A stretch of 57,410 bases of DNA from Oscillospiraceae bacterium (lineage in GTDB: Bacteria; Bacillota; Clostridia; UBA1381). The notes under the pieces were generated by a model. It saw nothing but the letters and a program-made list of their open reading frames with translations, had not been told where the DNA came from and did no database searches. How positions within the stretch are numbered: position 1 is the first letter of the stretch; each line of letters begins with the position of its first letter. Location: contig JAFLUB010000015.1 in NCBI GenBank assembly GCA_022509025.1, forward strand, positions 1 through 57,410. The letters run 5' to 3'. The position numbers and the translations under genes are program-made. Positions 2,628-53,039 of the stretch are shown piece after piece.

Positions 2628-2855
2628 CAGTGTGTAGACAAAGTCTGCACACTGAGCAGACTTTGACAAATTAGGTCAGATTTCACGAAAATAAGCCTGT
2701 CGGCGTACGTGGGTACGGTAAGGCTTGTTTTCGTGAAAAGCGCATAACAGCGGTGTTTTTCGATAAAATACCGCTGTTAAATTTACTTAGTATAAAAATA
2801 CCTTGATATTGTAGATTGTAATATTGCGCGGTCTGGGCAATTTGTCTACAGTCTG
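2628..2855 (+). mobile_element. MITE-like structured repeat, copy A (228 bases)
   Basis: The same sequence occurs inverted at 23487-23715, with about 10 substitutions and one 1-base indel by hand alignment (about 95% identity). The ends are imperfect inverted repeats (CAGTGTGTAGACAAA at the left; the complement of the right end reads CAGACTGTAGACAAA). Inside are a terminal hairpin with an AAA loop (2628-2654), a long hairpin with CACGAAAA/TTTTCGTG arms (about 2683-2739), and an AACAGCGGT/ACCGCTGTT hairpin (about 2746-2779). No coding potential is seen, so it would need a transposase supplied in trans. This could instead be a REP/BIME-like repeat. Confidence 0.75.
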
Positions 2856-2883
2856 AAACGGATAGATTCATGTCTATCCGTTT
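2856..2883 (+). repeat. Palindromic flank, right copy, of MITE-like element A
   Basis: Arms AAACGGATAGA and TCTATCCGTTT form a perfect 11-bp stem with a 6-base loop. It may act as a weak terminator for the surface-protein gene, although the downstream T run is poor. It duplicates the palindrome at 2600-2627. Confidence 0.7.
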
Positions 2884-6081: not shown

Positions 6082-6092
6082 TTTTTAAATTG

Positions 6093-6165
6093 ACGCCTTA
6101 TCTGCCCACGATAAGCGCATTAAAGATTTTCATTACTATTTGTGGGCAGGAAGGCTATGGATATT
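6093..6165 (+). repeat. Intercistronic structured element, truncated copy (rpoD-prmA)
   Basis: This matches the right half of the 166-base elements at 18448-18613 and 51321-51486. It keeps GCCTT (6095-6099) pairing with AAGGC (6151-6155), and CTGCCCAC (6102-6109) pairing with GTGGGCAG (6142-6149). The intervening loop is also conserved, including GATTTTCATTACTATTT. It lacks the left hairpin and the partner of the outer stem. The pairing includes the only ribosome-site-like bases ahead of prmA. Confidence 0.8.
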
Positions 6166-6168
6166 TAT

Positions 6169-7134
6169 ATGGACTGGATACAGGTATCAATTTTCACCAC
6201 CTCCGAGGGTATAGAGCCGGTTAGCGGAAGATTGTATCAGCTCGGAATTAATGGCATAGAGATTGAGGACGAACAGGATTTTAAGGATTTTCTTGAAAAT
6301 AACAAGCAGTACTGGGACTATGTTGATGATGAGCTTGTTAAAAAGATGGAAGGAGAAACTAAAGTCAAGGTGTATGTCAGTGATGATACAGCGGGACGTG
6401 AGTTGCTTATTTCCATAAAATCAACACTCGAGGATTTGAAGTTGCTTGATACTGAACATGAATTCGGCAGGCTTGAAATTGAATATGACAGCATGACGGA
6501 AGAGGACTGGGCGAATAACTGGCGGCAGTATTTCCATACTATGGAGATAGGTGAAAAGCTTATTATAAAACCGGAGTGGGAGGAACTCAAAGAACCAACT
6601 GACAGGGTAGTGTTTAATATAGAACCCGGAATGAGTTTCGGCACAGGCTCCCATTATACAACGCAGCTGTGCCTTGAAGCCCTTGAACAATATGTTACTC
6701 CAGGAATGAAAATGCTTGATCTTGGCTGCGGCAGCGGAATTTTATCAATCATTTCGCTTCTTCTGGGAGCAGATGAAGCTGTCGCTGTCGATATCGACCC
6801 TAATGCTGTTGATACTGCTTATGCTAACGCCGAGAGAAACGGTATCGATAAATCAAAATATACTGTTCTGGCAGGAAATGTTGTGACAGACACGGATATT
6901 CAGGAAAAAATCGCGAAAAATAAATATGAGGTTGTTGCGGCAAATATTGTTGCGGATGTGATAATAGGACTTTGCCCCAAGGCTAAGGAATACATAAAGG
7001 ATGGCGGAGTATTTATAACATCGGGAATAATTGAGGATAGAATAGACGATGTGAAAAAGGCGCTTATAGAAAACGGTTTTGAGATTATCACCGTAAATCG
7101 CCGTAAAGACTGGGCTTCCATAATATGCAGATAA
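6169..7134 (+). CDS. prmA: Ribosomal protein L11 methyltransferase PrmA
   Basis: SAM-dependent methyltransferase that trimethylates ribosomal protein L11. The start at 6169 gives MDWIQVSIFTT, the usual family N-terminus. ATG at 6157 (adding MDIY) and GTG at 6142 are in-frame alternatives supplied by the repeat element upstream. The protein has 321 residues: an N-terminal substrate-recognition domain, then a Rossmann domain with SAM motif LDLGCGSGILS and the NIVADV motif. The distance from the AGGAAGG site (6148-6154) to 6169 is 14 bases, unusually long, and to 6157 only 2, so the real start is unsettled. It follows rpoD without a visible promoter. Confidence 0.93.
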   Translation: MDWIQVSIFTTSEGIEPVSGRLYQLGINGIEIEDEQDFKDFLENNKQYWDYVDDELVKKMEGETKVKVYVSDDTAGRELLISIKSTLEDLKLLDTEHEFGRLEIEYDSMTEEDWANNWRQYFHTMEIGEKLIIKPEWEELKEPTDRVVFNIEPGMSFGTGSHYTTQLCLEALEQYVTPGMKMLDLGCGSGILSIISLLLGADEAVAVDIDPNAVDTAYANAERNGIDKSKYTVLAGNVVTDTDIQEKIAKNKYEVVAANIVADVIIGLCPKAKEYIKDGGVFITSGIIEDRIDDVKKALIENGFEIITVNRRKDWASIICR

Positions 7135-17463: not shown

Positions 17464-18453
17464 ATGAAAATAGCTGTAATAGGCTCCGGCGGATGGGGAA
17501 CTGCGATAGCAATTCTGTTATCGTCAAGAGGACATGACGTTTATCTGTGGTCATGGATACAGGAGGAAACTGACAGACTTTCTAAAGATAGAGAAAACAA
17601 AGAATTTCTTTCGGGAGTTAAGTTTCCTGAAACGATTTACTGTACGCACGACATGGGTGAATGCGCAGACGGCGCGGAACTCATCATAACCGCTGCTCCG
17701 TCACCCGCTACGCGGACTACGGCAAAACAGCTTTCACCACATGTGAAAGCAGGACAAAAAATAGTTAATATCTCAAAAGGACTTGAGGAAGGCACATTAT
17801 TACGTCTTTCCCAGGTTTATAAAGAGGAAATTCCGCAGGCTGATATATCGGTAATGAGCGGTCCGTCACATGCTGAAGAGGTTTCACGCGGACTCCCCAC
17901 AACCAATGTGGTTGCCTCTGAAAGTGTTGAAACTGCAAAATTTATTCAGGATATCTTTATGGGAGAGATGTTCAGAGTATATACCTCAACCGATATTATA
18001 GGCTTAGAGCTTGGCGGCGCGCTTAAAAACGTTATTGCTTTATGCGCGGGAATAAGTGATGGACTCGGTTACGGAGATAACACAAAGGCGGCTCTTATGA
18101 CAAGAGGACTGGCTGAGATTGCTCGGCTTGGTGAGGCTATGGGAGCTGATAAAAGAACATTTACGGGATTATCAGGCGTTGGCGACCTTATAGTAACATG
18201 CACAAGTATGCATTCTCGTAACCGCAGAGCCGGTATACTTCTCGGACAAGGCAAGAGTCTTAAAGAAACACTTGACAGTGTACATATGGTGGTTGAGGGT
18301 GTTAACACAGCCGCTGCCGCATATGAAATGGCAAAGAAATATAATGTTACGATGCCTATAGTAGAAGAGGCATATAACATATTATATAACGGAAAAGATG
18401 CAAAGGAAGCCGTTTTGAGGCTTATGACAAGGGAGAAACGGGAAGAGGATTAA
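17464..18453 (+). CDS. gpsA: NAD(P)-dependent glycerol-3-phosphate dehydrogenase
   Basis: Reduces dihydroxyacetone phosphate to sn-glycerol-3-phosphate for lipid synthesis. Rossmann motif GSGGWGTA at the N-terminus, the conserved GPSHAEEV segment, the catalytic-lysine region LGGALKNVIALCAG, and GVGDLIVTC are all present in 329 residues. The ribosome site is AAGGAGG. Its TAA stop falls inside the left hairpin of the 166-base intercistronic element. Confidence 0.97.
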   Translation: MKIAVIGSGGWGTAIAILLSSRGHDVYLWSWIQEETDRLSKDRENKEFLSGVKFPETIYCTHDMGECADGAELIITAAPSPATRTTAKQLSPHVKAGQKIVNISKGLEEGTLLRLSQVYKEEIPQADISVMSGPSHAEEVSRGLPTTNVVASESVETAKFIQDIFMGEMFRVYTSTDIIGLELGGALKNVIALCAGISDGLGYGDNTKAALMTRGLAEIARLGEAMGADKRTFTGLSGVGDLIVTCTSMHSRNRRAGILLGQGKSLKETLDSVHMVVEGVNTAAAAYEMAKKYNVTMPIVEEAYNILYNGKDAKEAVLRLMTREKREED

Positions 18454-18613
18454 CGTGAAAAATCACGCTAATCAGATTTGATTGCCCGTGCGATTTTTTC
18501 TCACAAGGTTCGAAAACGCACAGGGGCATAATATCCATTTAACGCCTTATCTGCCCACGATGAGGACGTTGATGTTTTCATTACAATTTGTGGGCAGAAA
18601 GGCTATGGATATT
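18448..18613 (+). repeat. 166-base intercistronic structured element, full copy B (gpsA-trkA)
   Basis: This aligns along its length with 51321-51486. Stems: GATTAACGTGA/TCACGCTAATC with one mismatch (18448-18473, containing the gpsA stop); GCCCGTGCG (18484-18492) with CGCACAGGGGC (18517-18527); AATATCCAT (18530-18538) with ATGGATATT (18605-18613); GCCTT (18544-18548) with AAGGC (18599-18603); and CTGCCCAC (18551-18558) with GTGGGCAG (18590-18597). The last three stack into one long stem that hides an AAGG segment and an ATG. There are no terminal inverted repeats. Confidence 0.8.
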
Positions 18614-18619
18614 ATTAGT

Positions 18620-19972
18620 ATGAACGTTGTAATTGTAGGCGGAGGAAAAGTCGGAAGAAAGCTTGTGAAGGATTTTAATAATGAGGGCGAGAATATTGTT
18701 CTTATTGATATTAAAAATTCCGTATGCGAGAGGGTTGAAGAAAGCTATGACGTCAGATGTGTGAACGGTATAGGAACAAATCTTGAAACTTTGAACGAAG
18801 CCGAGGTCAGAAAAGCTGATTTGTTTATTGCTGTTACTGAAAATGACGAGTATAATGCGCTGTGCGCGGTAATGGCAAAAAAGCTTGGCGCGGAAAGATG
18901 CGTTGCGAGAGTAAGAAACAGAGTATATTTTAAACAGCTTGATTTTATGCGCTCAGCGCTGGGAATAGACCTTATAGTAAATCCTGAATATGCGACTGCA
19001 AGTGAAATATCAAGAATACTACGCTTCCCGGCAGCAATAAATGCTGAAACTTTTGCAAAGGGACGGGTTGAACTTATTGAATTCAATATAGGAGATGATA
19101 ATTCGCTTTGCGATAAGGCTTTATATGAAATATATAAAAAATATAAGATTAAAGTGCTCATATGTGCCGTTCAGCGCGGGAGCGAGGTTTACATCCCTAA
19201 CGGTGATTTTATTATCAGAAAGGGAGATAAGCTGCATATAACGGCGTCCCACCGTGATTTAACATTGTTTATGCGTGAGATTGGCGTTATACAGAAGAAG
19301 GTAAAATCAGCTATACTTATCGGAGGCGGAAGGATATCGTTTTATCTTGCGAAGCTGTTACTGGAAAGCGGAATGCAGGTTAAAATAATAGAAAGTAATA
19401 TGGAACGTTGTCAGGAACTGGCTGAATATCTTCCTAAAGTAGATATAGTGTATGGTGACGGAACAGACAAAAACGTGCTTAGTGAAGAGGGTATAGACAG
19501 GGTTGATTCTCTGGTGGCGCTTACCGGTATAGACGAGGAAAATATGATAATTTCCATGTATGCAAAGACACGAGATGTCGATAAGATTGTCACAAAGGTA
19601 AACCGTATTTCCTTTGCAGACCTTATGGATGATAGCGGAGTATATAGCATAGTAACGCCTAAAAATATTACTGCGGATATAATAATACGCTATGCAAGAG
19701 CGATGAAATCAGCAAAGGAAACTGAAATTGTTACTCTGTACCGTATTGTTAACAACCAGGCTGAAGCTTTAGAGTTTATTGTAAATAAAGAATCAGAACT
19801 GACTTCAAAATCTCTTTCGCAGATAAAAATTAAGAAAAATGTACTGATAGCGGCAATTCTGCACAACAACAAAATGTTTGTGCCGGATGGAAACAGCCGG
19901 ATTTCGGTAGGAGATACTGTAGTTGTTGTGACTACGCAGCACCTGACCACACTAAGCGATATACTGGAATAA
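18620..19972 (+). CDS. trkA: Trk potassium system regulatory subunit TrkA (two RCK domains)
   Basis: Peripheral nucleotide-binding subunit gating a TrkH channel. The 450 residues contain two RCK_N/RCK_C repeats: the first Rossmann motif GGGKVGRKL at the start, the second at SAILIGGGRISFYLAK near residue 230, each followed by an RCK_C domain. The start at 18620 gives MNVVIVGGG, the expected N-terminus. ATG at 18605, inside the structured element, is in frame and would add MDIIS. Neither has a well-spaced ribosome site, since the element's AGAAAGG is 17 or 2 bases away. The gene precedes trkH by 14 bases. Confidence 0.93.
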   Translation: MNVVIVGGGKVGRKLVKDFNNEGENIVLIDIKNSVCERVEESYDVRCVNGIGTNLETLNEAEVRKADLFIAVTENDEYNALCAVMAKKLGAERCVARVRNRVYFKQLDFMRSALGIDLIVNPEYATASEISRILRFPAAINAETFAKGRVELIEFNIGDDNSLCDKALYEIYKKYKIKVLICAVQRGSEVYIPNGDFIIRKGDKLHITASHRDLTLFMREIGVIQKKVKSAILIGGGRISFYLAKLLLESGMQVKIIESNMERCQELAEYLPKVDIVYGDGTDKNVLSEEGIDRVDSLVALTGIDEENMIISMYAKTRDVDKIVTKVNRISFADLMDDSGVYSIVTPKNITADIIIRYARAMKSAKETEIVTLYRIVNNQAEALEFIVNKESELTSKSLSQIKIKKNVLIAAILHNNKMFVPDGNSRISVGDTVVVVTTQHLTTLSDILE

Positions 19973-50656: not shown

Positions 50657-51331
50657 ATGGGTGTATTGATAGTTATTGACGGTGTTGACGCGAGCGGAAA
50701 GCAGACACAGTCTAAGCTTCTTTCAGAACGACTTAAACACGAGGGGAACGATGTTAAAATGATTTCATTCCCTGCGTATGATAAACCGTCTTCAACACTT
50801 GTGAAAATGTATCTTAACGGTGATTTCGGCGAAAAGCCTTCGGACGTAAACGCTTATGCCACATCTACATTTTATGCTGCCGACCGTTTTTCTACCTACA
50901 GAACGGATTGGGGAAGTGACTATAATACCGGTACGATTATTCTTGCAGACAGATATGTTTCCTCTAACCTTATTCATCAGGCGAGTAAAATAGATACCGA
51001 CGATGAAAAGGACAAATTCATTTCATGGCTTGATGACCTTGAACATAATATATACTCTTTGCCGCGTCCTGATGTAACTGTTTTTCTGGATATGCCACCG
51101 GAATACGGCATTGAACTTATGAGAGACAGGGCTAATAAAGCTGACGGTACCGATAAAAAGGATATACATGAAAGTGATTTTGAATACCTCAAAAAAAGCT
51201 ATGAAAATGCTGTTTATGTTGCAAATCGCTGTGGCTGGAAGCGTATTTCCTGCGTAAACAACGGCGAACTAAGGAGCGTGGAAGAGATACATGAGGATAT
51301 ATATTCCACGATAAAGGAGTATTTACCGTGA
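50657..51331 (+). CDS. tmk: Thymidylate kinase (dTMP kinase)
   Basis: Phosphorylates dTMP to dTDP. The 224 residues begin with a P-loop DGVDASGKQTQ, then carry the DRY segment LADRYVSSNLIHQASK that binds dTMP, a PDVTVFLDMPPE strand, and a LID region with basic residues. It belongs to a Clostridia-type variant with DxSGKQT instead of the usual GSGKTT ending. The ribosome site is GCGGAGG. Its TGA stop lies inside the left palindrome of the intercistronic element (51321-51346). Confidence 0.9.
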   Translation: MGVLIVIDGVDASGKQTQSKLLSERLKHEGNDVKMISFPAYDKPSSTLVKMYLNGDFGEKPSDVNAYATSTFYAADRFSTYRTDWGSDYNTGTIILADRYVSSNLIHQASKIDTDDEKDKFISWLDDLEHNIYSLPRPDVTVFLDMPPEYGIELMRDRANKADGTDKKDIHESDFEYLKKSYENAVYVANRCGWKRISCVNNGELRSVEEIHEDIYSTIKEYLP

Positions 51332-51486
51332 TTAATCACGGTAAATGATTTCATTGCCCGTGCGAGTATTTTCCCGGCAAGCTAAAAAAACGCACATGGG
51401 CATAATCTCCATTTAACGCCTTATCTGCCCACGATAAGAGCGTTAAAGTTTTATTACTATTTGTGGGCAGAAAGGCTATGGAGATT
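51321..51486 (+). repeat. 166-base intercistronic structured element, full copy C (tmk-stalk protein)
   Basis: Same length and order of stems as copy B. The left end is a perfect 26-base palindrome (51321-51346, half-site ATTTACCGTGATT) containing the tmk stop. GCCCGTGCG (51356-51364) pairs with CGCACATGGGC (51391-51401), AATCTCCAT (51404-51412) with ATGGAGATT (51478-51486), GCCTT (51418-51422) with AAGGC (51472-51476), and CTGCCCAC (51425-51432) with GTGGGCAG (51463-51470). Compared with copy B the outer stem shows an A-T to C-G pair change. Confidence 0.8.
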
Positions 51487-51491
51487 TTTGC

Positions 51492-53039
51492 ATGATAAAA
51501 AAACTAATCGTTCTGATTGCCGCGTGTATGCTTTTATGCGGTATTCATGCGTATGCTGCCGATGGAATAGAAATATATATAGACGGTGAGCGGCTCGAAG
51601 GCGGAGCCGCTCCTGTTTATACAGATTATCGTGTGCTTGTGCCTATGCGCGCTGTGTTTGAGGCTATTAATGTAGAGGTTTCGTGGGACGGCACGCAGAA
51701 TAAGGTTACTGCACAGCGTGAAGATGAGTTGGTTGAGCTTATTATTAATAATGCTTATTTGAGTACGGGGATTTTCAATTATGACGGCGAGGTCGTATGG
51801 ACAGATAATATACCTCTTGATGTTCCCGCGCGGCTTATAGATGACTATACATATGTTCCGGTACGCGCAGTGTCGGAAACACTTGGCGCGTCTGTCGAAT
51901 GGATTGAAGAAACCAAAACAGTTATGATAGACAGCCGTAAAAATGCGGACAGCGTAATTTACTATACATCAGAAAATGAGAGCGGAAAACTCTGCTCAAT
52001 CAGGGAAAGCGGTCTTGGCAGACGCGTAATTTCATCTATAGGCGCGCATGACATAGAGGTTTGTGATGATGGATATGTGTACTATCTGTCAAATGATAAT
52101 AATTATCTCTACAGAGCGAATAATAAATACGAAGAAGAACCGCTTTTGGAAAAGAGCATAAATAAAATTGCGATTCATGACGGTTTTATATATTATCAGG
52201 AAATTGAAAATAATGATGAACACAGAGGTGTGCTGTATCGTATGAATATATCTACGCTTCAGGCGGAACAGCTTACGGATCGTCCCGTAAAATGGCCCAA
52301 GATGTATAAAGGCAGGATATATTTTAATATTGACTATGACAATAGAATGTATGTTCTAACTAAGGATGGAGCGTCTTTAAACGTAATAGAAACCGGCAGC
52401 AGCGCCTTTGCAAAATTATATCCGTTTAACTGTGTGTTTTTTGATAACTATATACTGTATGAAGACGGAGTAATGTACAATGATATTATGCGCGTAAGCC
52501 TTGACGGAAAAGAAATAAAAAAACTTGTTAATGCCGGATCTGTTATATATCCCGGCCAGACTCATGGCGATAAGATAGTTTATACATGCCACGATAACGG
52601 TCAGGATATTTACTGCGTCAATATTGACGGCACGGATAATCATCTTGTGCATAAAGGTGATATTTCATGGCTCGATATAGAGATTGTCGCACGCGTTGGA
52701 GATACAATTTATTATAAACATCCTATGCGATATGAGATATACAGGGTCAATCTTGACGGAACCGACGACAGATATGTTTGTTATGGTGAGGATATAGCTA
52801 TAAGTGAAGATGTACTGATTTCAGCGTATCAGCAGAAGCTTTATGCATTTGATACGGATGGCTCTTTGATAAATATCATCTACAGAAGAAATGTTGATAA
52901 GTTTAAAATAGAGGGGAATAATGTGTATTTTACTGACAGTATAAGTAAACGGTTGTATATTTCCGAATCTTACGGAAGCGCCGGCGCTGTTACATTTGAC
53001 GCTGTAGGAGAATGGGTTACGGATTGTGGTGGAATATAA
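51492..53039 (+). CDS. Secreted copper-amine-oxidase-stalk / DUF5050 propeller protein
   Basis: The 515 residues start with a signal peptide (MIKKLIVLIAACMLLCGIHA, cleavage likely after AYA). A copper amine oxidase N-terminal-like stalk domain follows (about 25-150; RVLVPMRAVFEAINVEVSWD and YVPVRAVSETLGASVEW). The remainder is repeated beta-strands of DUF5050 propeller type, with recurring MYKGRIYF, RVSLDGKE and YRVNLDGTDDRYV units. It is an extracellular, probably wall-associated binding protein without known enzyme activity. The ATG at 51492 overlaps, as ATGA, the end of a five-codon frame (51478-51495) that begins at the ATG in the upstream structured element. Confidence 0.88.
   Translation: MIKKLIVLIAACMLLCGIHAYAADGIEIYIDGERLEGGAAPVYTDYRVLVPMRAVFEAINVEVSWDGTQNKVTAQREDELVELIINNAYLSTGIFNYDGEVVWTDNIPLDVPARLIDDYTYVPVRAVSETLGASVEWIEETKTVMIDSRKNADSVIYYTSENESGKLCSIRESGLGRRVISSIGAHDIEVCDDGYVYYLSNDNNYLYRANNKYEEEPLLEKSINKIAIHDGFIYYQEIENNDEHRGVLYRMNISTLQAEQLTDRPVKWPKMYKGRIYFNIDYDNRMYVLTKDGASLNVIETGSSAFAKLYPFNCVFFDNYILYEDGVMYNDIMRVSLDGKEIKKLVNAGSVIYPGQTHGDKIVYTCHDNGQDIYCVNIDGTDNHLVHKGDISWLDIEIVARVGDTIYYKHPMRYEIYRVNLDGTDDRYVCYGEDIAISEDVLISAYQQKLYAFDTDGSLINIIYRRNVDKFKIEGNNVYFTDSISKRLYISESYGSAGAVTFDAVGEWVTDCGGI

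Follow-up and report, generated by a model that had tools for sequence, protein, structure and literature searches.

A large family of structured RNAs without an Rfam entry, mobile and targeting the interval between the Shine-Dalgarno sequence (SD) and the AUG start codon, is represented by three copies in the window (the whole 57,410-nt stretch of DNA analysed here). The RNA core is a conserved H-type pseudoknot composed of stems S1 and S2, and full copies add an enclosing stem (P1) and two preceding hairpins (HP1 and HP2). As the preliminary description had stated, two full copies (copy 1, 18448-18613; copy 2, 51321-51486) and one short copy (about 6090-6165) lie between genes. Both full copies fold better than dinucleotide shuffles (z of -6.6 and -7.2, respectively; 0 of 200 shuffles as good). 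That the element is a structured RNA inserted between SD and AUG is, in our judgement, nearly certain. The features in the window are the following.

18443..18448, + strand: host SD AAGAGG of trkA, read from the sequence, left stranded upstream of copy 1
18448..18473, + strand: HP1 of copy 1, beginning right behind the host SD; basal pairs covary across copies
18451-18453, + strand: gpsA stop codon, just within HP1 of copy 1
18483..18528, + strand: HP2 of copy 1, TGCCCGTGCG...CGCACAGGGGCA, from fold and alignment
18530..18538, + strand: P1 5' arm of copy 1, AATATCCAT, covarying with 18605-18613
18539..18571, + strand: S1 hairpin of the copy 1 pseudoknot, TTAACGCCTTATC / GATGAGGACGTTG, from covariation
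18552-18558, + strand: S1 loop of copy 1, TGCCCAC, one strand of S2, from covariation
18590..18596, + strand: S2 3' strand of copy 1, GTGGGCA, partner of 18552-18558; S2 covaries in relatives
18596..18602, + strand: AGAAAGG of copy 1, candidate SD of the element itself, complementary to the 16S tail CCUUUCU
18605..18613, + strand: P1 3' arm of copy 1, ATGGATATT, the element end, from alignment and covariation
18620..19972, + strand: trkA (Pfam TrkA_N/TrkA_C), start codon 6 nt past copy 1
50657-51331, + strand: thymidylate/deoxynucleoside kinase gene upstream of copy 2 (Pfam)
51313-51319, + strand: host SD AAAGGAG before copy 2, from sequence
51320..51486, + strand: full copy 2 as matched by the covariance model (182.6 bits)
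51320-51346 and 51355-51402, + strand: HP1 and HP2 of copy 2, from fold and covariance model
51404-51412/51478-51486, + strand: P1 of copy 2, from fold and covariance model
51426-51432/51463-51469, + strand: S2 of copy 2
51469-51475, + strand: AGAAAGG of copy 2, from sequence
51492..53039, + strand: gene behind copy 2, with copper amine oxidase N-terminal and DUF5050 domains (Pfam)
6090..6165, + strand: short, pseudoknot-only copy (64.2 bits), between a sigma-70 gene (rpoD-like) and prmA (Pfam)
6090-6123, + strand: S1 of the short copy, with S2 at 6103-6109/6142-6148 and AGGAAGG at 6148-6154, from sequence and covariance model
6157-6165, + strand: ATGGATATT of the short copy, followed by ATG at 6169, from sequence

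The fold was evaluated in relatives, whose loci were chosen by covariance-model matches. Alignment A3 has 74 rows, comprising 72 copies from other genomes and two reverse-strand echoes, which were kept for counting covariation and dropped for GAAAGG. It was fitted for P1 and S1 to a model (R2) built from alignment A2, a set of 65 rows drawn largely from matches to a 19-mer, and S2 lies outside the alignment model. Across P1, S1 and S2, 89.7% of the cells in A3 are paired and both sides have changed in 25 of the 26 pairs. The 203 double-change cells compare with 62 in shuffles and 24-36 with slid partners, and 0 of 500 shuffles reach this number. Double changes occur in six of the seven S2 pairs in A3, and P1 alone accounts for 39 double-change cells in the 65-sequence set A2. 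Covariation of this kind, which preserves pairs, identifies a selected structured RNA. The selected fold proposed from the window is borne out by these compensatory changes, and the A-T to C-G change read in the outer stem is found again across copies, the fourth pair being A-U in 22 and C-G in 6 of 28.

The preliminary description had pictured each full copy as ending in stacked stems. These exist, and covariation is seen for P1 and CTGCCCAC/GTGGGCAG, and not for GCCTT/AAGGC, where no double change occurs. We reject the stack as the conserved state, because GCCTT/AAGGC lacks covariation whereas the S1 hairpin and the pseudoknot covary strongly. The alternative pairing of GCCUU(A)UC with GAAAGGC can form in 98% of cells with zero double changes, and the 14-bp helix in which GCCUU(A)UCUGCCCAC would pair with GUGGGCAGAAAGGC, in competition with the pseudoknot, is likewise devoid of covariation. 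In copy 1 the long hairpin is predicted at -38.6 kcal/mol, and P1 with S1 at -20.7 kcal/mol, to which S2 adds -12.6 kcal/mol with the pseudoknot penalty uncounted; by these values, both the long hairpin and the pseudoknot are possible folds. The minimum-energy structure is the long hairpin in five of seven folded copies, and contains S1 in L141 and L305.

Three copies, the number from which the preliminary description argued, is correct for the window and far too low for the genome (G000, 2.49 Mb). A DNA search of this genome returned 40 scored matches, and a covariance model (R1) from a 28-copy alignment (A1) returned 89: 54 full copies of 131-202 bits, 18 further matches of 39-81 bits and 17 weaker ones. 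We estimate about 70 copies in total (54 full and at least 14 shorter). Seventy-two of the 89 matches score at least 38.9 bits, and 68 were examined, leaving out C57 (contig end), C51:5709 (antisense echo), and C5:29126 and C65:6291 (no locus); the 17 weaker matches, most of which are antisense echoes judging by their places, were also left out. An integron attC array, with gene cassettes clustered between attC sites, was considered and rejected, as the full copies are spread over 33 contigs and sit inside ordinary operons, for example one read by eye as nadK-argR-recN. At C1:84776-90686 (L097), four pseudoknot-only copies occur within 6 kb, each followed by a different gene.

Outside this genome, the carriers are scattered. 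Fifteen congeners have 0-4 matches each, versus about 70 in the own genome. In a sample of the class, at least 17 of 196 genomes (including the own genome) are carriers, scattered among the rest, when the best 21 candidates per genome are passed through strict filters, and in an even sample of 199 genomes from the phylum the element was found in the own genome only (best 20 candidates per genome, strict filters). The exact 19-mer matched at least 83 stretches, mostly from Clostridia-type genomes among the matches listed, and the isolate Ructibacterium gallinarum DSM 107454 is a carrier of one copy or more. Distant variants at L276, L277 and L287 have GGCTCAC/GTGAGCC as S2 and a changed P1, and L277 is in a single-contig genome of 5.5 Mb (G215). 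A full copy also occurs at positions 6895-7100 of a viral contig (L221, IMGVR_UViG_3300031555_010414), among large ORFs that by eye form a phage structural (tail) module, and such a contig is a possible vehicle for transfer.

Six copies in the own genome have an enlarged HP1 loop (C25:6663, C25:7351, C4:51582, C3:50772, C2:34754 and C32:8461; L025, L029, L086, L089, L092 and L015). Those that were read contain an extra GC-rich hairpin, e.g. CCCGCC...GGCGGGT, and end in TTGTTGTTTCACAAT or near it. This group is either a subfamily or the product of a nested second repeat.

The placement of the copies is highly uniform. In the own genome, 52 of the 54 full copies are followed within 10 nt (within 7 nt in 51) by the start codon of an open frame on the same strand, the commonest gap being 3 nt (30 copies) and the exceptions being C15:31927 and C56:19364. 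Copies in random orientation away from gene junctions, or a lack of covariation, had been named in the preliminary description as evidence against its reading; covariation is strong, and nearly all full copies directly precede a start codon. All 14 short copies examined also adjoin a start codon in sense orientation, as do 83 of the 86 exact 19-mer matches in named genomes (among the matches listed; of the exceptions, a contig end cuts off one, and the triple tandem L185 accounts for the others with its two inner members). At relatives' loci the same is true of 34 of 36 pattern matches (exceptions L125 and L293). Placement elsewhere is rare among the examined copies (2 of the 54 full ones), although insertion upstream of the SD would seem harmless. 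The upstream stop codon, which had been placed inside the first hairpin as a general feature, is found there in only 9 of the 54 full copies (an upstream frame of at least 80 codons was found for 39).

The downstream genes examined (20 proteins and three window genes, by Pfam) are functionally unrelated. The window genes behind copies are prmA, trkA and one whose product has copper amine oxidase-N and DUF5050 domains, in agreement with the start-proximal leader that had been described for prmA, trkA and the gene of a surface-type protein. Elsewhere, the products include AddB, an EF-G-like GTPase, glutamate-cysteine ligase, aconitase, Lgt, SAICAR synthetase and a MurG-like glycosyltransferase 28; CobW, a phosphoribosyltransferase, cytidylate kinase, a SLOG/lysine-decarboxylase family protein, a semialdehyde dehydrogenase and QueC; and RemA-like, HAD, amidase, GGDEF and 4Fe-4S proteins, a Clp ATPase and DNA polymerase III gamma/tau. 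Judged from sequence, common regulation of these genes is possible.

Comparison with orthologous genes in congeners reveals the borders of the element. The trkA orthologs of 13 of 13 congeners have the same start codon and no insert, and their junctions are short and plain, e.g. GGGGAG-AATTGATT-ATG, or the genes touch. In 14 of 14 congeners recN is without the element (e.g. GAGGAG-CGAAGTA-ATG, versus AAGGAG-[element]-AAC-ATG in the own genome), and argR has no insert of any kind in the same number. The dnaN gene has a plain leader in 13 of 13 congeners, e.g. ACACAAGGAG-ATATAAAAA-ATG, and reads ACACGGAGAA-[pseudoknot-only copy]-AAT-ATG in the own genome. Orthologous sites at trkA, argR, recN and dnaN thus show the insertion polymorphism of a mobile element, and the empty sites identify the element as a mobile insert placed between SD and AUG. 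A vertically inherited, riboswitch-like leader of a fixed regulon would fit the site before the start codon, the pseudoknot and the possibly exclusive folds. It is largely contradicted by the empty sites, which imply lineage-specific gain at all four genes, and by the presence of about 70 copies before unrelated genes in one genome against 0-4 in congeners, and we regard it as very improbable.

In one congener (G006), the same SD-AUG site of recN (L245) is occupied by another insert, about 220 nt long, whose HP1 loop is large. Its HP1 arms, TAACGTG/CACGTTA, and its 3' end, ATGGAGATT-nnn-ATG (here ATGGAGATT-ACT-ATG), are those of the element and its interior is different, which suggests a wider group of inserts with common ends and different cores. 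An inverted-repeat search of this insert (seed 9, minimum 12, distance 120) found none, the HP1 arms being shorter and further apart.

The left border coincides with the host SD in most copies, as indicated by binding to the anti-SD. The 18 bases up to the HP1 core have a mean of -8.5 kcal/mol in the 54 full copies of the own genome, which is like the -8.8 kcal/mol of 18 ordinary window genes; a control 55-70 nt upstream gives -3.2 and random 18-mers -3.3 kcal/mol. Values of -6 kcal/mol or lower occur in 41 of 54 copies (a count that includes the six copies with enlarged HP1 loops, for which the SD window is off target), 11 of 54 at the control position and 13 of 18 ordinary genes. At L156, L171 and L207, HP1 follows a terminator-like hairpin, its arms pair with the T-rich tract of that hairpin, and by eye there is no upstream SD.

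The right border is about 3 nt before the AUG. The 3' end is constant and the 5' end variable, copies being full, pseudoknot-only or, in one case (L095), about the last 40 nt. The L095 remnant (2814-2880, minus strand) retains only the S2 3' strand, AGAAAGG and the P1 3' arm, and the start of the ORF directly behind it resembles a 16S rRNA methyltransferase (RsmI-like; by eye). In L185 (named MAG SIG610, 1510-1862), three element 3' ends lie head-to-tail before a single gene, the first member being truncated, which shows renewed insertion behind the AGAAAGGCTATGGGAA of an older copy, and in L112/L204 one copy follows the 3' end of an earlier arrival. Such arrangements are expected if the element's own SD-AUG interval becomes a target again.

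The motif AGAAAGG lies directly 3' of S2. GAAAGG is kept in 67 of the 72 relatives' copies and the full AGAAAGG in 50; the named set (n=86) was found by the 19-mer, which fixes the 3' strand, so that counts of S2 and AGAAAGG in this set carry no independent weight. The 16S 3' end ...GGATCACCTCCTTTCT was located in 3 of 41 genomes searched, two of which are congeners (tail ...CCTCCTTTCT), and the complement CCUUUCU is taken from these kin, the own draft genome having no match to the 16S tail. The start codon follows AGAAAGG at a distance of 14 nt in 35 of the 64 copies from relatives and in 33 of 57 own copies having a start, and this spacing holds even over non-conserved bases (e.g. L300, L304 and L310). 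Pseudoknot-only copies that have no upstream SD nevertheless adjoin a start codon (L151, L200, L213, L305, L308 and L310; C37 and C54 in the own genome), which favours a replacement SD over use of the host SD; others have an upstream SD-like segment (those at dnaN and the clp gene, and L158).

On the basis of these sequence patterns, we favour, with some reservation, a mechanism in which the insert strands the host SD and brings its own. The element would be a mobile RNA/DNA unit, non-autonomous, that inserts into the short spacer leading from the SD of a gene to the start codon. Insertion would put about 75-175 nt between the host SD and the AUG, and expression would be kept because the element probably supplies AGAAAGG, single-stranded just 3' of S2, as the replacement SD. 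Several observations count against this: a spacing of 14 nt exceeds what is usual for an SD, a closed P1 would sit between the element SD and the AUG, GAAAGG is missing from 5 of the 72 relatives' copies, neither of the two mover families examined (Y1 transposase and reverse transcriptase) follows copy number, and host SDs upstream of HP1 are mostly intact, as if still used.

The competing 14-bp helix would bury the element SD and the pseudoknot would free it, so that the choice between pseudoknot and long hairpin could be an on/off switch of invaded genes, gated by a ligand, a protein or temperature. We put this regulatory role forward tentatively, as somewhat doubtful, since the SD-burying helix shows no covariation and is absent from the predicted fold in two of seven copies (L141 and L305). 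A leader peptide was also considered and rejected: the GTG in HP1 after the SD opens an 8-codon frame in 20 of 44 copies, a 6-codon frame in 9 and neither of these in 15, and 10 of 54 copies are without the pattern. Initiation at the ATG inside the element is a further possibility: among the copies scored, this ATG runs into the gene in frame, with no stop between, in 33 of 51 full and 8 of 11 short ones, about what the common gaps of 3 and 6 nt alone would give.

Alternatively, the host SD could stay working, with HP1, HP2 and P1/pseudoknot folding the insert away so that SD and AUG are near in space and the insert is translationally silent, like an intron or bypass element. The ordinary strength of the SD before HP1 fits this arrangement, as does the closing of P1 to about 3 nt before the AUG. 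So does the base of HP1, where the bases beside the constant core vary among copies and yet pair, with 1.04 extra pairs versus 0.52 with permuted arms (0 of 2000 permutations; 51 of 54 copies, many of them with arms cut a base too short, to equal effect on the observed and the permuted figure). This flank pairing is either a result of selection after insertion or a by-product of insertion itself. The fold leaves about 10 unpaired nucleotides between HP1 and HP2, the conservation of AGAAAGG would lack a reason, and the pseudoknot-only copies without HP1, HP2 and an upstream SD would not be expected at start codons, so we consider such bridging unlikely.

Another possibility is that mobility is purely a matter of DNA and the RNA fold is idle. 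Selection would keep the hairpins as single-stranded ends on which a Y1/HUH transposase of the IS200/IS605 or REP/RAYT kind acts, inserting 3' of GGAG-type tags, of which SDs are the commonest in non-coding DNA. The insertion right behind an SD-like GGAG agrees with this, and the ends are asymmetric with subterminal hairpins and by eye have neither a terminal inverted repeat nor a clear target duplication. As to a DDE-type MITE, which would have terminal inverted repeats and a target-site duplication, the 5' end ATTAACGTG does not, by eye, match the 3' end ATGGnnATT in inverted orientation, and no constant target duplication was found at three full-copy sites compared, the exact borders being uncertain. 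The own genome also has five Y1 transposase matches (PF01797). However, among these drafts G020 has 19 element matches and no Y1 and G013 has five Y1 and two element matches, and over 41 genomes Y1_Tnp occurs in 27 with no visible relation to element copy number. Idle RNA would also fail to explain the conserved 16S-complementary segment at its preferred distance from the AUG, or why hardly any copies lie anywhere but before a start codon. We judge this account improbable. Reverse transcriptase (RVT_1, PF00078) had no match in the element-rich genomes G000, G019 and G020, drafts that are 81-88% complete and could be missing the gene; a group II intron or retroelement was rejected for the lack of a cognate reverse transcriptase in these same drafts.

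Excision at the RNA level, by which the insert would be cut from the mRNA and SD and AUG rejoined as in a minimal intron, accords with the precise flanking of the element by SD and AUG and with the expression of housekeeping genes, which presumably survives. The variable 5' ends suit splicing badly and Rfam has no match to a self-splicing or other known RNA, making this extremely improbable. A bolder version of the replacement-SD mechanism is a parasite of translation starts, an RNA whose sole insertion site is the SD-AUG interval and which brings its replacement SD beside a switchable pseudoknot, perhaps picking its target on ribosome-engaged mRNA and not on DNA. This would make dnaN, dnaX, the Clp ATPase gene, murG, cmk, argR, recN, trkA and others one translationally co-regulated set; taken as a whole, it is distinctly unlikely to be correct.

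The preliminary description thus had the selected fold right, and it did not foresee mobility, the SD-AUG target, the pseudoknot or the 16S-complementary AGAAAGG. We know of no precedent for the SD-AUG interval as the target of a mobile element, and the mobile elements known to us limit harm by landing between genes or after terminators, or by splicing out. The element lands in the most sensitive bases of housekeeping expression signals, at 66 examined places in one genome, and is tolerated. If its own SD is indeed swapped in, this would be a new survival strategy for a selfish RNA and a natural portable translation-start module, and a regulon could arise by transposition.

As had been supposed, the element matches no known riboswitch class: in Rfam 15, no family reaches its gathering cut-off for the element in the window or at 22 further loci (best sub-threshold E value 8.6, copy 1). 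Elsewhere in those 22 loci, Rfam matches one SRP RNA and one tRNA. Phage and plasmid collections contain no match to the element, and no such element is described in the title or opening abstract lines of any paper listed by searches of an open-access library, a scope outside which most subscription journals fall.

The preQ1 and SAM-II riboswitch classes are translational and have an H-type pseudoknot near the SD. The element resembles them in having a pseudoknot beside an SD just before the AUG and a possibly exclusive fold, and differs in having no Rfam match, in being mobile and in preceding many unrelated genes. In the riboswitch-controlled group I intron of C. difficile, splicing joins the SD and the start region; it too is a mobile-type RNA between SD and AUG, whereas the element has no group I match in Rfam and is only 75-175 nt long. 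The byps are mobile translational bypassing elements in the coding sequences of yeast mitochondria, likewise inserts tolerated by the translation machinery, and the element differs in sitting before the start codon.

Among bacterial motifs that are structured and many-copy or start-proximal, mobile or repeat sequence candidates and the SLH motif are similar to the element, as far as the accessible parts of two noncoding-RNA surveys describe them (PMC11109978, PMC6429828). In the same parts of these surveys, MRSC-65-2 is a single long stem (PMC11109978, PMC6429828), and about 60% of 80 SLH motifs, from Synergistaceae, Clostridia and Negativicutes, precede S-layer-domain genes (PMC6429828). The SLH motif leaves a residual chance that the element has been described before (PMC6429828). 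REP/BIME sequences and IS200/IS605-derived repeats (TnpA-REP/RAYT) are similar to the element in being small, many-copy, non-autonomous, hairpin-rich and spread within a single lineage. REPs are 20-40 bp long according to the accessible part of PMC3733652, whereas the element is a pseudoknotted RNA of 75-175 nt that lies between SD and AUG and is not tracked by Y1 genes.
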